Assembly: GCA_003156805.1 (NCBI GenBank)
Contig: PMHV01000013.1
Location: 164,388-228,387 of the forward strand
Origin: Acidobacteriaceae bacterium
GTDB taxonomy: Bacteria; Acidobacteriota; Terriglobia; Terriglobales; Acidobacteriaceae
DNA: 64,000 nt
Direction: 5' to 3'
Positions 24,311 through 31,129 of the stretch are shown here, piece by piece; position 1 is the first letter of the stretch, and each line of letters begins with the position of its first letter. Both the position numbers and the translations under genes were made by a program. Below the pieces are notes generated by a model. The model had not been told where the DNA came from and searched no databases. It saw only the letters and a list, made by a program, of their open reading frames with translations.

Positions 24311-24704
24311 TATAATTCCGCCGATTCGTGGGCGTGACGGCCTGAGAGGGGCAGGCCGCAGGAGCGAACTGTGTACCCCTCGGACGAGCCGAACTTCGCA
24401 TCTGGTCCGCAGCGCTGCTGTGCGCTGCGTAGAGTGGTTGGTTCAGTATTGTTACGCGACGACGAAAGTTGTGCTTTCCTGAAGTCTGCGCGTCTTCTGC
24501 ATTCAGCTCCTCCCTTCACCCTCGTTGGAACCTTCCCAGAGGAAACAAGGACCTCATGGCAAAGTTCGGAGAGGCGAATTCGCCACGTCCGGCTGGATGG
24601 CTTGATCTGCAGGGCCGGGCCGAACTTGGCGGCAAGCCCTGGGAGCGCGGCGTGTTTTGCGGCCTTGCAGTGTGCTTGCACGCAGTCAAGAGGCGAGGAG
24701 GCCT
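24311..24704 (+). other. Candidate promoter and long leader before the sigma-54 activator gene
   Basis: TATAAT at 24311-24316 lies 16 nt after TTGCGG (24289-24294). A 7-bp hairpin CGGCCTG / CAGGCCG follows at 24338-24358. From there to the activator start at 24705 about 390 nt contain no gene I trust; a GTG frame from 24371 with an AGGAG in front has poor amino-acid composition and is not called. This covers most of the 555-nt gap 24150-24704. Confidence 0.4.
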
Positions 24705-27700
24705 ATGTCGGCTGACTTGCCAGCTCTCAGCAAGTTGATTCCATTCGCGGTTCGGGAGGCTTTCAGCGAGCCCGAGCAGTTGCTCACTGCCTATTTCCAC
24801 GAGTCCACCGTGGGACTCGGCATTTTCGATACGGAGTTTCGCTTCCTCGCTATCAATCTCGCCCTGGCACAAATGAATGGCATACCTCCCGCGGCGCATT
24901 TGGGGAAGCCTTGCCGCGAGGTGTTGAAGGATTTTGCCGACAAGGTTGAGCCGGAGTTGCGGCGCATACTGGCTGGCGAACCGCCCGTGGTGGGTCTGGA
25001 ACTCAGCGGGCTCCTGCCCACAAGGAACGAGATTGGCCACTGGATCGCGAATTATTTTCCCATCCAGGATACCGATGGAAGGGTAAAGCAGATCGGCGTC
25101 GTGGTGGTCGAGATTACCGAACAGAAGAAGCTCGAAGAATCCCTGGTTCGGCTCACCGCCAGATTGCAGCGGGAAAAAGATCGCTTGCAGGTGTTGCGCG
25201 AGATTGATACCACGCTGGCTTCCAACGCCGACATCCAACGGCTTTTTCCGGCCATCGTAGCCTGCATCGAGAAGGTTATTCCCTACGATCTCGCCGGAAC
25301 CTGGCTCTACGATCGGAAGGACCAGGTCATGCGCACGGCCGCACTCGACTCGCGAGTCGGGGAGGTGTTCCGCGAAGGCGAGGCCACACCCGTCGCCGAA
25401 TGCATGCTGGGCCAATCGATGCTGGCTGAAGCCTCCAAGACCTTCAATCACGCTGAGCTCATGACAATACCTTTCCCGGGCGCAAGAAAGCTCCTGGAAC
25501 ACGGCATCAAGTCAGTGTGCAGCGTGCCGCTGATCACGCCCAAGGGATCCCTGGGAGCACTGGGCCTGGGTGGCCGCGACGATCAGGCTTTCTCTCGGGA
25601 AGACGTGGCTCTGTTAAGCCATGCCGCAAGCTCCATTGCTTTGGGCTTGGAAAACGCTCTAACGAACCAAGCACTGCAGCAGGAGAAAGATCGGCTGCAA
25701 GCTCTGCGCGAAATCGACGCCGCTCTGGTTGCCCACCTCGACCTGGACAAGTTGCTCCCCGCCGTTTCCGAATGCCTGCGCCGGTCCGTGCCCCACGACT
25801 ACATCGGCATCCACCTGTACGACGAAAGCGCGAACGTCCTGCGTGACTATGCCCCCCGCTGTGAGATCACAGAGAAGATTCTTCCCGAGGATGGAGTGCT
25901 GCCGCTGGACGGATCCCTCGCAGGCCAGGCCTTTGTCGAGCGGAAGACTAAGGTCGTCAACTATGCGGAGTTGGCGAACGTCCCTTACGCAGTCGCGCAA
26001 CGAGCGATTGCGCAGGGTGTCCGGTCGATCTGTTTCGTTCCGTTGATCACCGGCAAAGGGACATTGGGGGTCTTGGTGCTTTCCAGCGGCAACGACCTTG
26101 CCTTCCAGCGGGAAGGGGTTGAGTTGCTGGAATCAGGCGCGGCGGCGATTGCCCAGGCCGTCGGCAACGCGCTGGCGCACCGAGACTTGCAGCAGAAGAA
26201 GGCGCGACTGCAGGCCCTTCGCGACATCGATGACATACTATTGTCCAGCCTGGACCTGCGCCAAGTGCTGCCTGCGGTTTCTGAGTGCCTGCGGCGGGCG
26301 CTGCCGCACGACCACGTTGGCATCTGCGTTTACGACGAGAGAGCGAAAGGGTTGCGCGATTATGCCGCGACTTCGGAGATCAAGCGCGGGGTTTACCCGG
26401 CAAATGGCGTGCTTCCACTGGACGGCTCCCTTACCGGTCGACATTTCGTAGAAGGCAAGAGCAGGGTGTATGACCACGCGGAGTTGGTCAATGTGACCTT
26501 CCCACAGACGCGGCGGGCACTCGAGGCGGGGATTCTCTCTTCCTGTTTTGTCCCCCTGGCTACCGCCAAAGGGCGGGTGGGCATTCTGACGCTTTCCAGC
26601 CACAAAGACAACGCATTCCGGCAGGAAGACCTTGAATTTCTCGAACAGGTGGCCGCCGCCCTGGCCCAGACCCTGCAGAACGCATTGGCCCACAAAGCCC
26701 TGCAGGAGGAGAAAAAGCGGTTGCAGGTGTTGCTCAACGTGAGCACTGCCCTGGCTACGAACTGGAATGTGCAGGAGACTTTTTCCACGATCTCGGCTTA
26801 TCTGCGCCGGGTGCTGCGGCAGGAGTACGCTGCTTTCCTTTTGCTCGACAAAAAAAGCGGACTGTTGGTGAGGCAGGCACTGGATTTTCCGTTGGGCAAG
26901 GGGCTGTGTTCCGCTCTGGACGTCAGTGCCGCGGATGGTCCGGAGGGCATGGTACTACGTGAGCGCAGGTCCCTTACTTTCCCCAAGGAAGAGATGCAAA
27001 GATTTCATGTCGAGATCGCGGACTGCTTGCTGGCGGAAGGAATGCGGTCTTTGTGCTCTGTCCCGCTGCTGCGGCCCAAAGGGCCGCTGGGAGTCATCTC
27101 GTTGGCGAGCACGCGGGCCGATGCCTTTAAGCCTGACGATCTGGCCCTTCTGAACCAGGTTGCGGCCCAGTTGGCAGTTGCCCTGGAGAACCGCCGGGTT
27201 TCGCTTGAGATCGAGACCTTGAAAGAACGGCTCTCCGCGGAGCGTAAGTACCTGGAAGGCGAAATCCGCACCGAACCCCATTTCGAAGAAATTATCGGAC
27301 AGAGCCCAGCATTGAAACAGACACTAAGGCAGGTGGAGACGGTCGCCGGCAGCGACGCCACGGTCCTGATTTTGGGCGAGACCGGGACCGGCAAGGAATT
27401 GATTGCCCGCGCCATCCACCGCAGCAGTGGGCGCAGAGAGCGAGCCTTCATCAAATTGAATTGTGCGGCCATTCCCAGTGGGCTGCTGGAAAGTGAGTTG
27501 TTCGGACACGAGAGAGGCGCTTTCACCGGGGCGGTCACTCAGAAAGTGGGACGCTTGCAACTGGCCGATCGGGGAACCCTGTTTCTGGACGAGATCGGCG
27601 AGATCCCGCTGGAATTGCAGCCCAAGCTTCTGCGCGTGCTTCAAGACCAGGAGTTCGAGCGGTTGGGTGGCACGCGGACCATCAAAGTCGATCTGCGGCT

Positions 27701-28244
27701 GATTTCGGCCACCAATCGCGATCTGGCAAAGAGTGTGTCCGAAGGCGAATTCCGCAGCGATTTGTTCTATCGTTTGAACGTCTTTCCCATTCGCGTTCCG
27801 TCCTTGCAGGAGCGGCGCGAAGATATTCCGCTGCTGGTGAGGTACTTCGTTCGCAAGTATGCCGCCCGCATGGCACGAACGATCGAATCTATCCCCAACG
27901 AGACCATGAATGCCCTGATGGAATGGCCGTGGCCGGGGAACATTCGGGAACTGGAGAACTTTATCGAGAGATGTGTGATTTTGAGCCAGGGCCCCGTCCT
28001 GCTGGCGCCCCCGGAAGAGCTTCGGGGCGCGACGGGCAACGCCACCTCCGCAGATCACACGCTGGAGAATGCGGAACGGGAACACATTATCAGCGTTTTG
28101 CGAGAAAGCGGAGGAGTGATTTCCGGTGCCGCAGGAGCAGCCAACCGCCTCGGACTCAAACGAACTACTCTCCAATCCATGATGCACCGCCTGGGAATCG
28201 GCCGGGAAGAATACTCCGGCCGGTCCCCGAAGAACCCGAAGTAG
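24705..28244 (+). CDS. Sigma-54-dependent transcriptional activator with PAS and four GAF domains
   Basis: A 1,179-residue enhancer-binding protein. Order: PAS (about 25-140), GAF1 (185-320), GAF2 (350-490), GAF3 (520-660), GAF4 (690-830), AAA+ (865-1095), Fis-type HTH (about 1125-1175). Each GAF is preceded by a similar linker (LQREKDRLQVLREID, LQQEKDRLQALREID, LQQKKARLQALRDID, LQEEKKRLQVLLNVS), so the module multiplied by duplication. Walker A GETGTGKE is near residue 890, GAFTGA near 938, and Walker B is LFLDEIGE. There is no receiver domain, so it senses ligands or small molecules directly, like FhlA. The ATG at 24705 follows GAGGCGAGGAGG. Its likely target is the adjacent Crp/Fnr gene. 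Confidence 0.95.
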   Translation: MSADLPALSKLIPFAVREAFSEPEQLLTAYFHESTVGLGIFDTEFRFLAINLALAQMNGIPPAAHLGKPCREVLKDFADKVEPELRRILAGEPPVVGLELSGLLPTRNEIGHWIANYFPIQDTDGRVKQIGVVVVEITEQKKLEESLVRLTARLQREKDRLQVLREIDTTLASNADIQRLFPAIVACIEKVIPYDLAGTWLYDRKDQVMRTAALDSRVGEVFREGEATPVAECMLGQSMLAEASKTFNHAELMTIPFPGARKLLEHGIKSVCSVPLITPKGSLGALGLGGRDDQAFSREDVALLSHAASSIALGLENALTNQALQQEKDRLQALREIDAALVAHLDLDKLLPAVSECLRRSVPHDYIGIHLYDESANVLRDYAPRCEITEKILPEDGVLPLDGSLAGQAFVERKTKVVNYAELANVPYAVAQRAIAQGVRSICFVPLITGKGTLGVLVLSSGNDLAFQREGVELLESGAAAIAQAVGNALAHRDLQQKKARLQALRDIDDILLSSLDLRQVLPAVSECLRRALPHDHVGICVYDERAKGLRDYAATSEIKRGVYPANGVLPLDGSLTGRHFVEGKSRVYDHAELVNVTFPQTRRALEAGILSSCFVPLATAKGRVGILTLSSHKDNAFRQEDLEFLEQVAAALAQTLQNALAHKALQEEKKRLQVLLNVSTALATNWNVQETFSTISAYLRRVLRQEYAAFLLLDKKSGLLVRQALDFPLGKGLCSALDVSAADGPEGMVLRERRSLTFPKEEMQRFHVEIADCLLAEGMRSLCSVPLLRPKGPLGVISLASTRADAFKPDDLALLNQVAAQLAVALENRRVSLEIETLKERLSAERKYLEGEIRTEPHFEEIIGQSPALKQTLRQVETVAGSDATVLILGETGTGKELIARAIHRSSGRRERAFIKLNCAAIPSGLLESELFGHERGAFTGAVTQKVGRLQLADRGTLFLDEIGEIPLELQPKLLRVLQDQEFERLGGTRTIKVDLRLISATNRDLAKSVSEGEFRSDLFYRLNVFPIRVPSLQERREDIPLLVRYFVRKYAARMARTIESIPNETMNALMEWPWPGNIRELENFIERCVILSQGPVLLAPPEELRGATGNATSADHTLENAEREHIISVLRESGGVISGAAGAANRLGLKRTTLQSMMHRLGIGREEYSGRSPKNPK

Positions 28245-28263
28245 GCCCGTCGAATCGTACAAG

Positions 28264-28300
28264 ATGCCGACCAATCGTCGTGCTGCCGATTGGTCGGCAT
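28264..28300. promoter_or_regulatory. Perfect 14-bp inverted repeat: activator site or terminator
   Basis: ATGCCGACCAATCG (28264-28277) and CGATTGGTCGGCAT (28287-28300) are separated by 9 nt. The repeat starts 20 nt after the activator gene stop and is followed by ATAGTTTT, so it could end transcription. Its place 86-122 nt upstream of a -24/-12 element is equally typical of an enhancer site for a Fis-type activator. Confidence 0.7.
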
Positions 28301-28385
28301 ATAGTTTTAGCTTTCCATGTCGGAAATTGGCGGATTTTCCTCTTCCGAACAGGTTTTTGCCCAATTCCGCACCCCCCGACCATTC

Positions 28386-28401
28386 TGGAACTACGATTGC
28401 A
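28386..28401 (+). promoter_or_regulatory. Sigma-54 (-24/-12) promoter candidate
   Basis: TGGAAC at 28386-28391 and TTGCA at 28397-28401. The GG and GC are exactly 12 nt apart, and the match to TGGCAC-N5-TTGCA is 10 of 11 fixed positions. Transcription would start near 28413. The region 28245-28631 has no other promoter-like signal that I see. Confidence 0.75.
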
Positions 28402-28631
28402 TTGCTGAGTTTACTTCTCCTCACGGAAAGATTCGAGGGTTTGAGGTTTGGGGTCGCGTCTAGCCGCAATAGACGTAAGATGCCCAGCCGCATTCGTCGG
28501 TAATGCCGGGTGCTACCGGCTACGAGGTAAACGTTGTGTTAGTTGCCAGCCAGTTCCCGCCCAACAGAACAAGTCCTGCGCGTGGTTTCCCAGGGCCGTT
28601 TCGGGGTTTCCCAACCGCAATAGGGACGCCA

Positions 28632-29681
28632 ATGCGTCCCGCATTTCGCGAACCGGAGTTGCGGGAAAATCTCGAGCCTACTGCACCCGGCGAAGTTCGG
28701 GAAGCTGCGAGGTCGGAGCCGCTCGCCAACTGCAATGCGGAAGAAATCGATCCGCTCTATCTGTTTGCCTGTCATGTCGAATGGGAACGGCAGGCTGAAC
28801 CCAGCGCGGCGTGGGAAATCATCGCGGCCGGGCACAGCCTGGACGAAGAGACGCGGGCGCACGCCCGTTGCCTCCTTGCCCAGTCTCACCCCGCTAAAAC
28901 TGGATTGCGCGAGGACAGCCGCGCAGAAGAAAAGTGTCGCCGAAATCCGGCTAAGGAGGCAGGAATGAGAACACCCTACGGTCTGGAAATCATCGAGAGC
29001 TGCGTCGGTTGTAAGCTGAGCCGCACCAGTTTTTTCTGTGGTTTCTCGCCGGCGGTTGTGAGGTCGCTGGATGTAGTCAGCCGCCACAGCATATTTCCCG
29101 GCGGTGCGCTGCTGTTTGTCGAAGGCCAGGTACCGCGGGGCATTTTCGTTCTCTGCTCGGGCAGAGTCAAGCTCTCAACCACTTCCAAAGAAGGCAAGGT
29201 GCTGGTCCTGAAGCAGGCCGAAGCGGGCGAAGTGTTAGGGTTGAGCGCGGTTATCTCCGGGGAAAACTATGAGATGAGCGCCGAGACCGCAACTCCATGC
29301 CAGGTGAACTTCATAAGTCGCGCTGACTTGATGAATCTGCTGCAGTGCGAGAGTGAAGTGGGGGTGCGCGCCGCACAGTGGTTGAGCCGGGAGTCCCAGT
29401 GCGCATCTCGCGATATTCACGACCTTGTCTTGGCGCGCTCTTCGGCGGGAAAACTTGCCCGGCTGTTGCTGTCTTGCGCGCCACTGGGGCTGCAAGCATC
29501 TGAGGAGGAACTCCGCCTGCGTTCCACCATGACGCACGAGGAGATGGCGCAGAGGATTGGATCCTCGCGGGAGACGGTGACGCGTCTATTGAGCGATCTC
29601 AAGAAGAAGCGGCTGATCCGGCTGGAAGGAGCAACGCTGGTAATTCGCGACCGGATCGCGCTGGAGGCAATCGCGGTTTAA
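28632..29681 (+). CDS. Crp/Fnr-family regulator with N-terminal extension domain
   Basis: The frame from ATG 28632 (after AGGGA) encodes 349 residues. The first 111 include EEIDPLYLFACHVEWERQ and PSAAWEIIAAGHSLDEETRAHARCLLA, a helical repeat-like segment unlike Crp. The Crp part starts MRTPYGLEIIESCVGCKLSR at 28965, where an ideal AAGGAGG is present, so a 238-residue form may also be made. That part has a CxxCx8C cysteine cluster plus a later Cys (VLCSGRVKL), suggesting a 4Fe-4S or other redox sensor as in FNR, then a cNMP-binding barrel and an HTH (MTHEEMAQRIGSSRETVTRLL). It is preceded by the sigma-54 promoter and followed by a terminator. Confidence 0.9.
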   Translation: MRPAFREPELRENLEPTAPGEVREAARSEPLANCNAEEIDPLYLFACHVEWERQAEPSAAWEIIAAGHSLDEETRAHARCLLAQSHPAKTGLREDSRAEEKCRRNPAKEAGMRTPYGLEIIESCVGCKLSRTSFFCGFSPAVVRSLDVVSRHSIFPGGALLFVEGQVPRGIFVLCSGRVKLSTTSKEGKVLVLKQAEAGEVLGLSAVISGENYEMSAETATPCQVNFISRADLMNLLQCESEVGVRAAQWLSRESQCASRDIHDLVLARSSAGKLARLLLSCAPLGLQASEEELRLRSTMTHEEMAQRIGSSRETVTRLLSDLKKKRLIRLEGATLVIRDRIALEAIAV

Positions 29682-29738: not shown

Positions 29739-29941
29739 TCCGTCTTGCGGGAACTCGGGGGTAGTGGCGCAGTTTGAAACCTAGACTGCATGCGACTGAC
29801 AAGATAATTGCCGCAAGTGGTCAATGTGGGACAGTTCCTCTTTTGGTTTAGCCTCAATATTGAAGATGAGGTTGCCACCTATCTAAGCGACAGATCGGCC
29901 AACCACTTGTGCCCTGCGGGCTCATGAAAGAGTTAAAGAAA

Positions 29942-31129
29942 ATGACCAGACTCGAAAGCTCACACAAACCACAGATGTTTATGGCGTTAGTATTCGCCGT
30001 TTTGCTTGCAGGTGGTGGAATCGGAAGGGTCTTTGCTGCCGTTGCCCCCGGTGTTACCGTTGCTCCCGGCACTCTTGTCGGCGCAGCTACAGAACCCACG
30101 GTGATTTCGTCAAGCCCAAGTAACAGGGCCACGAACGTGCCGACCAGCACAAATACCAGTGATAACGTTGTAACTGGCGCCGAAGTGACCGCAACCTTCA
30201 GCCAGCCGATGGACCCGGAAACGGTTAACTCGTCCTCGGCGGGAAATTTGCTCACGTTCACGGTCAGGGAGACAAACGGAAACGACGTACCCGGTACCGT
30301 CGTCATGAATGACGCAAACACTGTCGCAACCTTTACGCCAACATCGTCCGCGCTCAACCCGAATGCCAGCTATACCGCCACGGTTACGACGGAGGCGAAG
30401 AACGCAGCTGGAGTTGCAATGGGCAATCCCATTGAATGGACATTTACGACCAACGCCGTCGAGTTTACCGGACAGACGCCGGTACCCCTTGGAGCAGCAG
30501 GCCCTTTCGTGATTCTGACCAAATCAGGAATCACAGACGTTTTTCCCTCTGCTATTAATGGGGATGTGGGAGCTAGTCCGATCACCGGAGCCGCTATCCA
30601 TCTGACGTGTGCAGAAATGATGACAGGGACGATTTACTCCGTGAATGCGGCGGGGCCTCTTCCCTGCAGGGTGACTGACCCCACCTTACTCACAACGGCT
30701 GTGGGCGACATGGAAACCGCGTACACCGATGCCGCCGGACGAAAATTGCCCAATTTTACTAATCTGGGAGCCGGACTGATTGGCGGGTTAACCCTCGTTC
30801 CCGGCCTCTACAAATGGACTACCCGGGTTTCAATACCAACCAATGTCACGCTCTCGGGTGGCCCAGACGCTGTCTGGATATTCCAGATAGCGGGAACTCT
30901 TACTCAGGCCAGCGCTACGAGCGTGATCCTGGAAGGCGGCGCACTGCCCAAGAACATCTTCTGGCAGACTTCCGGCGCTGTGGCCATCGGAACGACTGCG
31001 CACTTTGAGGGAGTAATACTGGCTAAAACAAAAATCGCCATGAAGACGAGCGCATCGGCAAACGGCAGACTGTTAGCACAGACTGCGGTCACTCTTGAGG
31101 AGAATGCGGTTACACGGCCCGCCCCGTAA
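29942..31129 (+). CDS. Secreted protein with Ig-like and ice-binding-fold (DUF3494) domains
   Basis: About 395 residues. A signal peptide (MFMALVFAVLLAGGGIGRVFA) is followed by an SbsA-type Ig-like domain (about 55-160; VTATFSQPMDPETV, VMNDANTVATFTP, and WTFTTN at its end), then a DUF3494 beta-helix (about 165-395) with FVILTKSGITDVFPSAINGDVG, TTRVSIPTNVTLSG and AVWIFQIAGTLTQAS. DUF3494 proteins bind ice or act as surface adhesins. The start is uncertain between 29942, 29924 and GTG 29909; none has a strong Shine-Dalgarno. It is the only gene before the tandem repeat at 31155. Surface attachment or freeze-tolerance roles are inference. Confidence 0.88.
   Translation: MTRLESSHKPQMFMALVFAVLLAGGGIGRVFAAVAPGVTVAPGTLVGAATEPTVISSSPSNRATNVPTSTNTSDNVVTGAEVTATFSQPMDPETVNSSSAGNLLTFTVRETNGNDVPGTVVMNDANTVATFTPTSSALNPNASYTATVTTEAKNAAGVAMGNPIEWTFTTNAVEFTGQTPVPLGAAGPFVILTKSGITDVFPSAINGDVGASPITGAAIHLTCAEMMTGTIYSVNAAGPLPCRVTDPTLLTTAVGDMETAYTDAAGRKLPNFTNLGAGLIGGLTLVPGLYKWTTRVSIPTNVTLSGGPDAVWIFQIAGTLTQASATSVILEGGALPKNIFWQTSGAVAIGTTAHFEGVILAKTKIAMKTSASANGRLLAQTAVTLEENAVTRPAP

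Follow-up and report, generated by a model that had tools for sequence, protein, structure and literature searches.

A candidate one-component sigma-54 switch with a recurrent palindromic site upstream of a Fnr-like gene with two conserved starts in Acidobacteriaceae

The window analysed here, a 64-kb stretch of an Acidobacteriaceae genome, carries a gene for a sigma-54 enhancer-binding activator and, 3' of it, a Crp/Fnr-family gene, with a long inverted repeat and a -24/-12 element lying between the two. This arrangement, which the original prediction had read as a self-contained sigma-54 circuit, raises the question of whether activator, repeat, promoter and target belong together, and which parts of the intergenic sequence would be the operative ones. 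The genomes closest by sequence are metagenome-derived acidobacterial ones, many titled Candidatus Sulfotelmatobacter, and the habitat group of these relatives is uncultured soil and peat acidobacteria, nearly all represented by metagenome assemblies. For comparison, a set of 29 orthologous loci was used (L001-L026 and L028, giving 27, plus L120 and L121, whereas L027, L029 and L030 were left out).

The activator gene (24657-28244, forward strand) has its first start codon at TTG 24657, while the true start is perhaps ATG 24705. Pfam matches of the product comprise PAS, four GAF, the sigma-54 activator AAA+ domain and, barely over the cut-off (23.1 versus 22 bits), the Fis-type helix-turn-helix domain HTH_8. 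In line with an enhancer-binding protein, the AAA+ domain bears Walker A (GETGTGKE) and GAFTGA motifs and is combined with a C-terminal HTH. The nearest NCBIfam model is FhlA (PRK15429), which is matched at 596 bits and thus under its curated cut-off of 830. The four GAF domains by which the activator had been characterized are indeed found here, but they are not a conserved trait, since six other scanned orthologues show one (L285, L292, and L294), two (L288) or three (L289 and L290) GAF matches, all in combination with PAS. In 26 of the 29 orthologous loci, an activator gene precedes the Crp gene, a count for which the upstream sequence of L024 spans just 705 bases. No activator gene was found within 1500 bases upstream of the Crp gene in L020 and L022. 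A single rpoN (one PF04552 match, E 3.9e-60) is present in the genome to which the window belongs.

The putative promoter, TGGAACTACGATTGCA at 28386-28401 on the forward strand, matches TGGCACN5TTGCW at 10 of 11 positions, and nowhere else in the 64 kb is this consensus matched with one mismatch or fewer. When two mismatches are allowed, 30 matches are found versus 31.8 expected, hence the motif alone is weak proof and a comparison is needed to decide on the promoter. In the orthologues, GG-N10-GC is found at the corresponding place in 29/29 loci, with at least 9/11 in 20, 8/11 in seven and 7/11 in two of them (the anchors L018, L023, and L026, scoring 7-8/11, were taken in on position). The -24/-12 element at exact spacing is thereby confirmed, showing the -24 GG and -12 GC at fixed distance in a genome encoding RpoN, and transcription is predicted to start at about 28412.

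In the intergenic region (28245-28536), the arms ATGCCGACCAATCG (28264-28277) and CGATTGGTCGGCAT (28287-28300) form a perfect 14-bp inverted repeat with 9 nt in between. First-order Markov resampling of this region gave 14-bp arms in none of 1000 sequences (maximum 10), and all other perfect repeats in the window (loop 3-20) have arms of at most 13 bp, making this one the longest. As such, however, the 14-bp repeat is not conserved among the orthologues and was rejected as a binding site for this reason. What is conserved is a 16-bp palindrome, TGCCGA-N4-TCGGCA, which reaches at least 11/12 in 25 of the 29 loci and 12/12 in 20, compared to 2/2900 random anchors with at least 11/12. Its best copy (searched at 74-105 nt) is placed upstream of the -24 element, at a distance of 97-103 nt in 27 loci and of 88 nt in the other two. 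In the window, this candidate upstream activator site 2 (TGCCGA-TTGG-TCGGCA, 28284-28299) is perfect, and a degenerate copy, TGCCGACCAATCGTCG (candidate site 1, 28265-28280), matches at 10/12. Across the 29 loci, the poorer copy is located 18-20 nt 5' of site 2 and scores 7-12/12 (best of four offsets), with the left half tending to persist in one clade and the right half in another. As judged from these sequences, the 14-bp repeat (28264-28300) merely results, at this locus, from the two sites standing in tandem, since its left arm sits in the poorer copy and its right arm in the good one. From the original prediction, the perfect arms and their position behind the activator gene therefore stand, while the likely binding unit is the 16-bp palindrome with its degenerate copy.

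Site 2 is weak (6-9/12) in four of the 29 loci. In L020 and L022, which are without a neighbouring activator, it is down to 9/12, whereas L014 and L017 have only 6 and 7/12 despite the presence of the activator gene. Being conserved about 100 bp upstream and common to several sigma-54 promoters, the palindrome has these traits of an upstream activating sequence, and the 29-locus comparison raises promoter and palindromic site, as candidates from sequence, well over chance. The predicted combination of a sigma-54 promoter with an upstream activator site and an adjacent activator is thus supported by the orthologues (palindrome in 25, activator in 26 of the 29 loci). Besides, another palindrome, GGAAC-N2-GTTCC, is conserved in one clade (L012, L014, L017-L024, and L026, with a mismatch also L016 and L025), where it lies 3' of the activator site and 5' of the -24 element and in many cases has GGGAAGTT behind it.

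Across 45 genomes of the genus, 92 perfect copies of the palindrome were counted (present in 39 of the genomes) versus 18 occurrences of the reversed pattern. In the genome of the window, the numbers are three and zero, respectively, and with one mismatch allowed 26 versus 14 per strand, which is a small enrichment. A -24/-12-like element of the GG/GC type at a distance of 70-105 nt accompanies 33 of the 63 distinct perfect sites with available flanking sequence at a score of at least 8/11 and 21 at a score of at least 9/11, as compared to 129 and 30 of 2719 random positions. About half of these perfect sites thus lie ahead of a -24/-12-like element. The remaining 30, many with AT-rich centres, lack such an element at this distance, among them two in the genome of the window, so the palindrome appears to be strongly, yet not exclusively, a sigma-54 site. 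At the latter two (G000:C46:158388 and G000:C13:168684, G000 denoting this genome and C46 the contig of the window), neither a tandem copy nor a -24/-12 element (up to two mismatches) was found nearby, and no adjacent activator gene. Both have AT-rich centres and have a different recurring palindrome, AATGTTCCCATGGGAACATT, behind them within about 110 nt (L104:1389 and L105:1485). The spacings between site and promoter cluster at 74-80, 87-90 and 97-103 nt with 91-96 empty, albeit in lineages that are not independent; this is the pattern predicted if the two sites have to lie on one face of the helix. Using a half-site plus promoter as genome-wide finder proved too weak, giving few matches per genome, with some obtained for the reversed control too. 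At the class level, a Crp-family match was found downstream of the activator in 12 of 29 loci (L256-L284, one from the genus) within the available sequence. Beyond the genus, the downstream palindromes differ (for example, TGACGATATAACGTCA and TGACCTTATAAGGTCA), with the 16-bp layout being kept in several.

Among 14 sites away from activators, picked mostly for a promoter or a tandem copy and with the products named by reading, 13 precede a gene for a small, cysteine-conserving protein of about 100 aa, and the remaining one precedes a PAS/kinase-like frame. The small four-cysteine protein (L150-L179; sequence pattern MLSHCANSQC...WLCDECA) has no Pfam match over the cut-off. In a protein search (E up to 0.001) it was found in 39 of the 45 genomes of the genus and was not found in the genome of the window. 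From 30 loci fetched, 25 were readable by start pattern, and 22 of these show the palindrome together with the promoter ahead of the four-cysteine gene, with combined scores of 18/23 or more, versus none of 492 control windows. The spacings are mostly 87-90 nt here, about one helical turn shorter than at the crp gene. Since at least 22 of the 45 genomes carry site and promoter before this second gene elsewhere, the circuit, as read from these sequences, is a small regulon within the genus, and its description as self-contained has to be given up. In the genome of the window, among the three perfect sites, a promoter was found only at the crp site. Four-cysteine homologues are located within 5 kb of listed Crp-family matches in 12 of 68 cases, where a rough estimate assuming uniformity predicts 0.33, and several of these proximities may represent one inherited neighbourhood.

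The Crp gene product shows Pfam matches to PF00027 (cNMP_binding, 2.1e-15) and PF13545 (HTH_Crp, 1.2e-14), in agreement with the Crp/Fnr superfamily. In 26 sequences, cysteines C156, C159, C168, C207, and C255 show no variation, while in a set of 28 C255 is nearly invariant. In the alignment with E. coli FNR, C156, C159, and C255 fall into the columns of C20, C23, and C122, which are ligand positions in FNR numbering. Accordingly, from the predicted Fnr-like target with Fe-S cysteines the match to three of the four FNR ligands was retained, but the third N-terminal cysteine is off by three residues. The NCBIfam Fnr model PRK11161 is matched at 45.8 bits, far under its cut-off of 228, and the recognition helix SRETVTR resembles that of Crp. 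By sequence, the protein is thus Fnr-like without being a member of the NCBIfam Fnr family, and it may bind an Fe-S cluster via the conserved cysteines. The next gene directly 3' of it, at 29909-31129, encodes an ice-binding-like protein (PF11999) that also has a bacterial Ig-like domain.

For the Crp gene, GTG 28536 is very probably the start codon, giving a product of 381 aa (28536-29681, forward strand) which consists of a disordered tail, a three-helix module (residues 73-116), a linker, a cyclic-nucleotide-binding-type domain, and HTH_Crp. In 26 of 27 loci, all but L026, no stop codon interrupts the frame 5' of ATG 28965 for at least 123 codons, and in 25 of 27 (not in L004 and L024) a start codon accompanied by a ribosome-site-like sequence (loose motif) stands at its head. 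In 26 sequences, pN/pS amounts to 0.34 for residues 68-117, compared to 0.86 for both residues 16-67 and the linker and 0.28 for the Crp part. AlphaFold predicts three helices at 73-116 as a block with pLDDT 70-90 flanked by disordered stretches, in a model that as a whole is weak (mean 64.7, pTM 0.43, 28 sequences). In a phylum search of 247 genomes, with at most 28 candidates scored per genome, the module gave matches at E up to 0.01 in five, strong ones only in the two sampled genomes of the genus, and no convincing relative outside it. Within the frame, an internal ribosome site (GGAGG) with ATG 28965 is present at 28955-28967. The GGAG is kept in 28 of the 29 loci, although the codon before GAG varies (AAG, GCG, ACG, ATG, CCG, TTG, CAG, and others). 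Translation from the inner site would begin with ATG in 27 loci and with GTG in two, and synonymous differences over the four ribosome-site codons are lowered (0.51 versus 0.71-0.73). Because the site is kept while the encoded residues vary and synonymous variation is reduced, a second product of 238 aa starting at ATG 28965 is suggested. In L029, outside the genus, a separate 85-aa frame without Pfam match fills the region before crp, and this suggests that the long form arose from a former operon turned fusion. In most of seven leaders (L003, L005, L006, L009, L010, L013, and L015), GACGAG/CTCGTC or GATGAG/CTCATC can pair into a hairpin ahead of the ribosome site; covariation is weak, with two-sided changes in just two of 22 pairs, and no conserved RNA structure is proposed for these leaders.

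Taken together, we favour, with a probability of roughly 0.78, a one-component sigma-54 switch made up of the activator, the tandem palindromes, the -24/-12 promoter and the Crp/Fnr gene with its two starts, and extending to a regulon in the genus. Directly observed are the sequence elements, how they are conserved, spaced and repeated, and a reading frame that is open and has two starts kept among the orthologues; the following steps would build on this. The PAS/GAF activator, presumably in response to a ligand, would bind the tandem TGCCGA-N4-TCGGCA palindromes right 3' of its own gene, a DNA loop of about 100 bp would bring it to the sigma-54 RNA polymerase at 28386, and the adjacent Crp/Fnr-type gene would be switched on. 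The transcript would then be translated from GTG 28536 into the long form with the three-helix module and, very probably, also from the internal ATG 28965 into the short form, both of them presumably acting as regulators. In relatives, the same site and promoter would drive the four-cysteine gene elsewhere.

An RNA hairpin terminating the activator transcript, instead of a protein-binding site, might also account for the inverted repeat, which begins 20 nt after the activator stop, folds at -28.6 kcal/mol (z -2.85) and is followed by TATAGTTTTA. This intrinsic terminator is highly improbable and was rejected, as at least five T within the next 10 nt are found in just three of the 25 orthologues having a good site; moreover, the conserved part is the palindrome at fixed distance to the -24 element, present also before an unrelated gene. 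Unlikely, but a good deal less so, is the use of the palindrome by another protein, that is, a paralogous activator or the Crp protein itself. The genus does have further activators whose tails are similar (about 47-62% identity), nearly half of the perfect palindromes with available flanks lack a promoter element, and in four genomes (G028, G030, G033, and G035) the site precedes the four-cysteine gene, while the activator tails listed are at most 52% identical to that of the window and no close activator orthologue is among them. For the latter reason, related activators probably read the same site. Against a different user of the palindrome at the crp locus speak the activator gene just 5' of it in 26 of the 29 loci, the decay of site 2 in the two loci without activator, and the genome of the window, where the activator tail finds a single other match, at 47% identity. 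In a scan of 17 activator loci of this genome, the best palindrome beside the others reaches at most 10/12.

The neighbouring activator thus being the preferred binder, it may still be asked which protein is made from the transcript. That the upstream Crp frame is silent and solely the 238-aa protein is synthesized would agree with the strong and conserved internal ribosome site and with the 85-aa frame replacing the upstream part in L029. This is very doubtful in view of the frame being open and properly headed in nearly all loci and of the low pN/pS in the three-helix part as compared to the linker. Starting from the dual-start reading, it can tentatively be proposed, at somewhat less than even odds, that the sigma-54 transcript yields two Fnr-like forms, the long one with a module so far seen only in the genus, that relatives add the four-cysteine protein as a partner in trans, and that the form, and perhaps the partner, sets the action of the regulator, an upstream cistron having been fused with the old start kept. 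From sequence alone, a candidate regulator, its binding code, a spacing rule, a promoter and two targets are obtained which are testable in E. coli reporters, and the palindrome is usable for mapping the same regulon across other acidobacterial genomes. The two-start Fnr-like protein illustrates concretely a way in which a regulator may acquire a domain without giving up its old start codon.

Compared to known systems, the activator resembles the FhlA type, which combines a GAF sensor, AAA+ with GAFTGA and a Fis-type HTH with a 16-bp palindromic site upstream of the promoter. Different here are the bases (TGCCGA/TCGGCA), the PAS with one to four GAF domains, the tandem degenerate copy, the transcription factor as target, and the score under the FhlA model cut-off. 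E. coli FNR shares the Crp/Fnr domain layout and the three aligned ligand columns, but the protein described here has the third cysteine three residues on, an extra invariant C207, the helix SRETVTR, the N-terminal three-helix module and the internal start. For Rhodobacter capsulatus LAerR/SAerR, an internal translation start yields two regulator forms with different effects (PMC9144470); this protein is unrelated, and its two forms were demonstrated experimentally, whereas here they are deduced from conservation. A literature search of limited coverage returned no paper on sigma-54/RpoN activator circuits in Acidobacteriota, including Sulfotelmatobacter. In Desulfovibrio (PMC4641369) and Clostridiales (PMC6615313), one-component enhancer-binding proteins are described, in the accessible parts of these papers, as adjoining their sigma-54 targets, with palindromic sites and small regulons, like the present system; phyla and motifs differ, and no Crp/Fnr target is named in those parts. 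Going by PMC4641369, PMC6615313, PMC9144470, and PMC7057263, activators commonly adjoin their targets and use palindromic sites, at distances of 100 bp or more, so the circuit layout belongs to an already known type. New in detail, as it seems, are the code of the binding site, the additional target present in relatives and the Fnr-like protein with its two starts.
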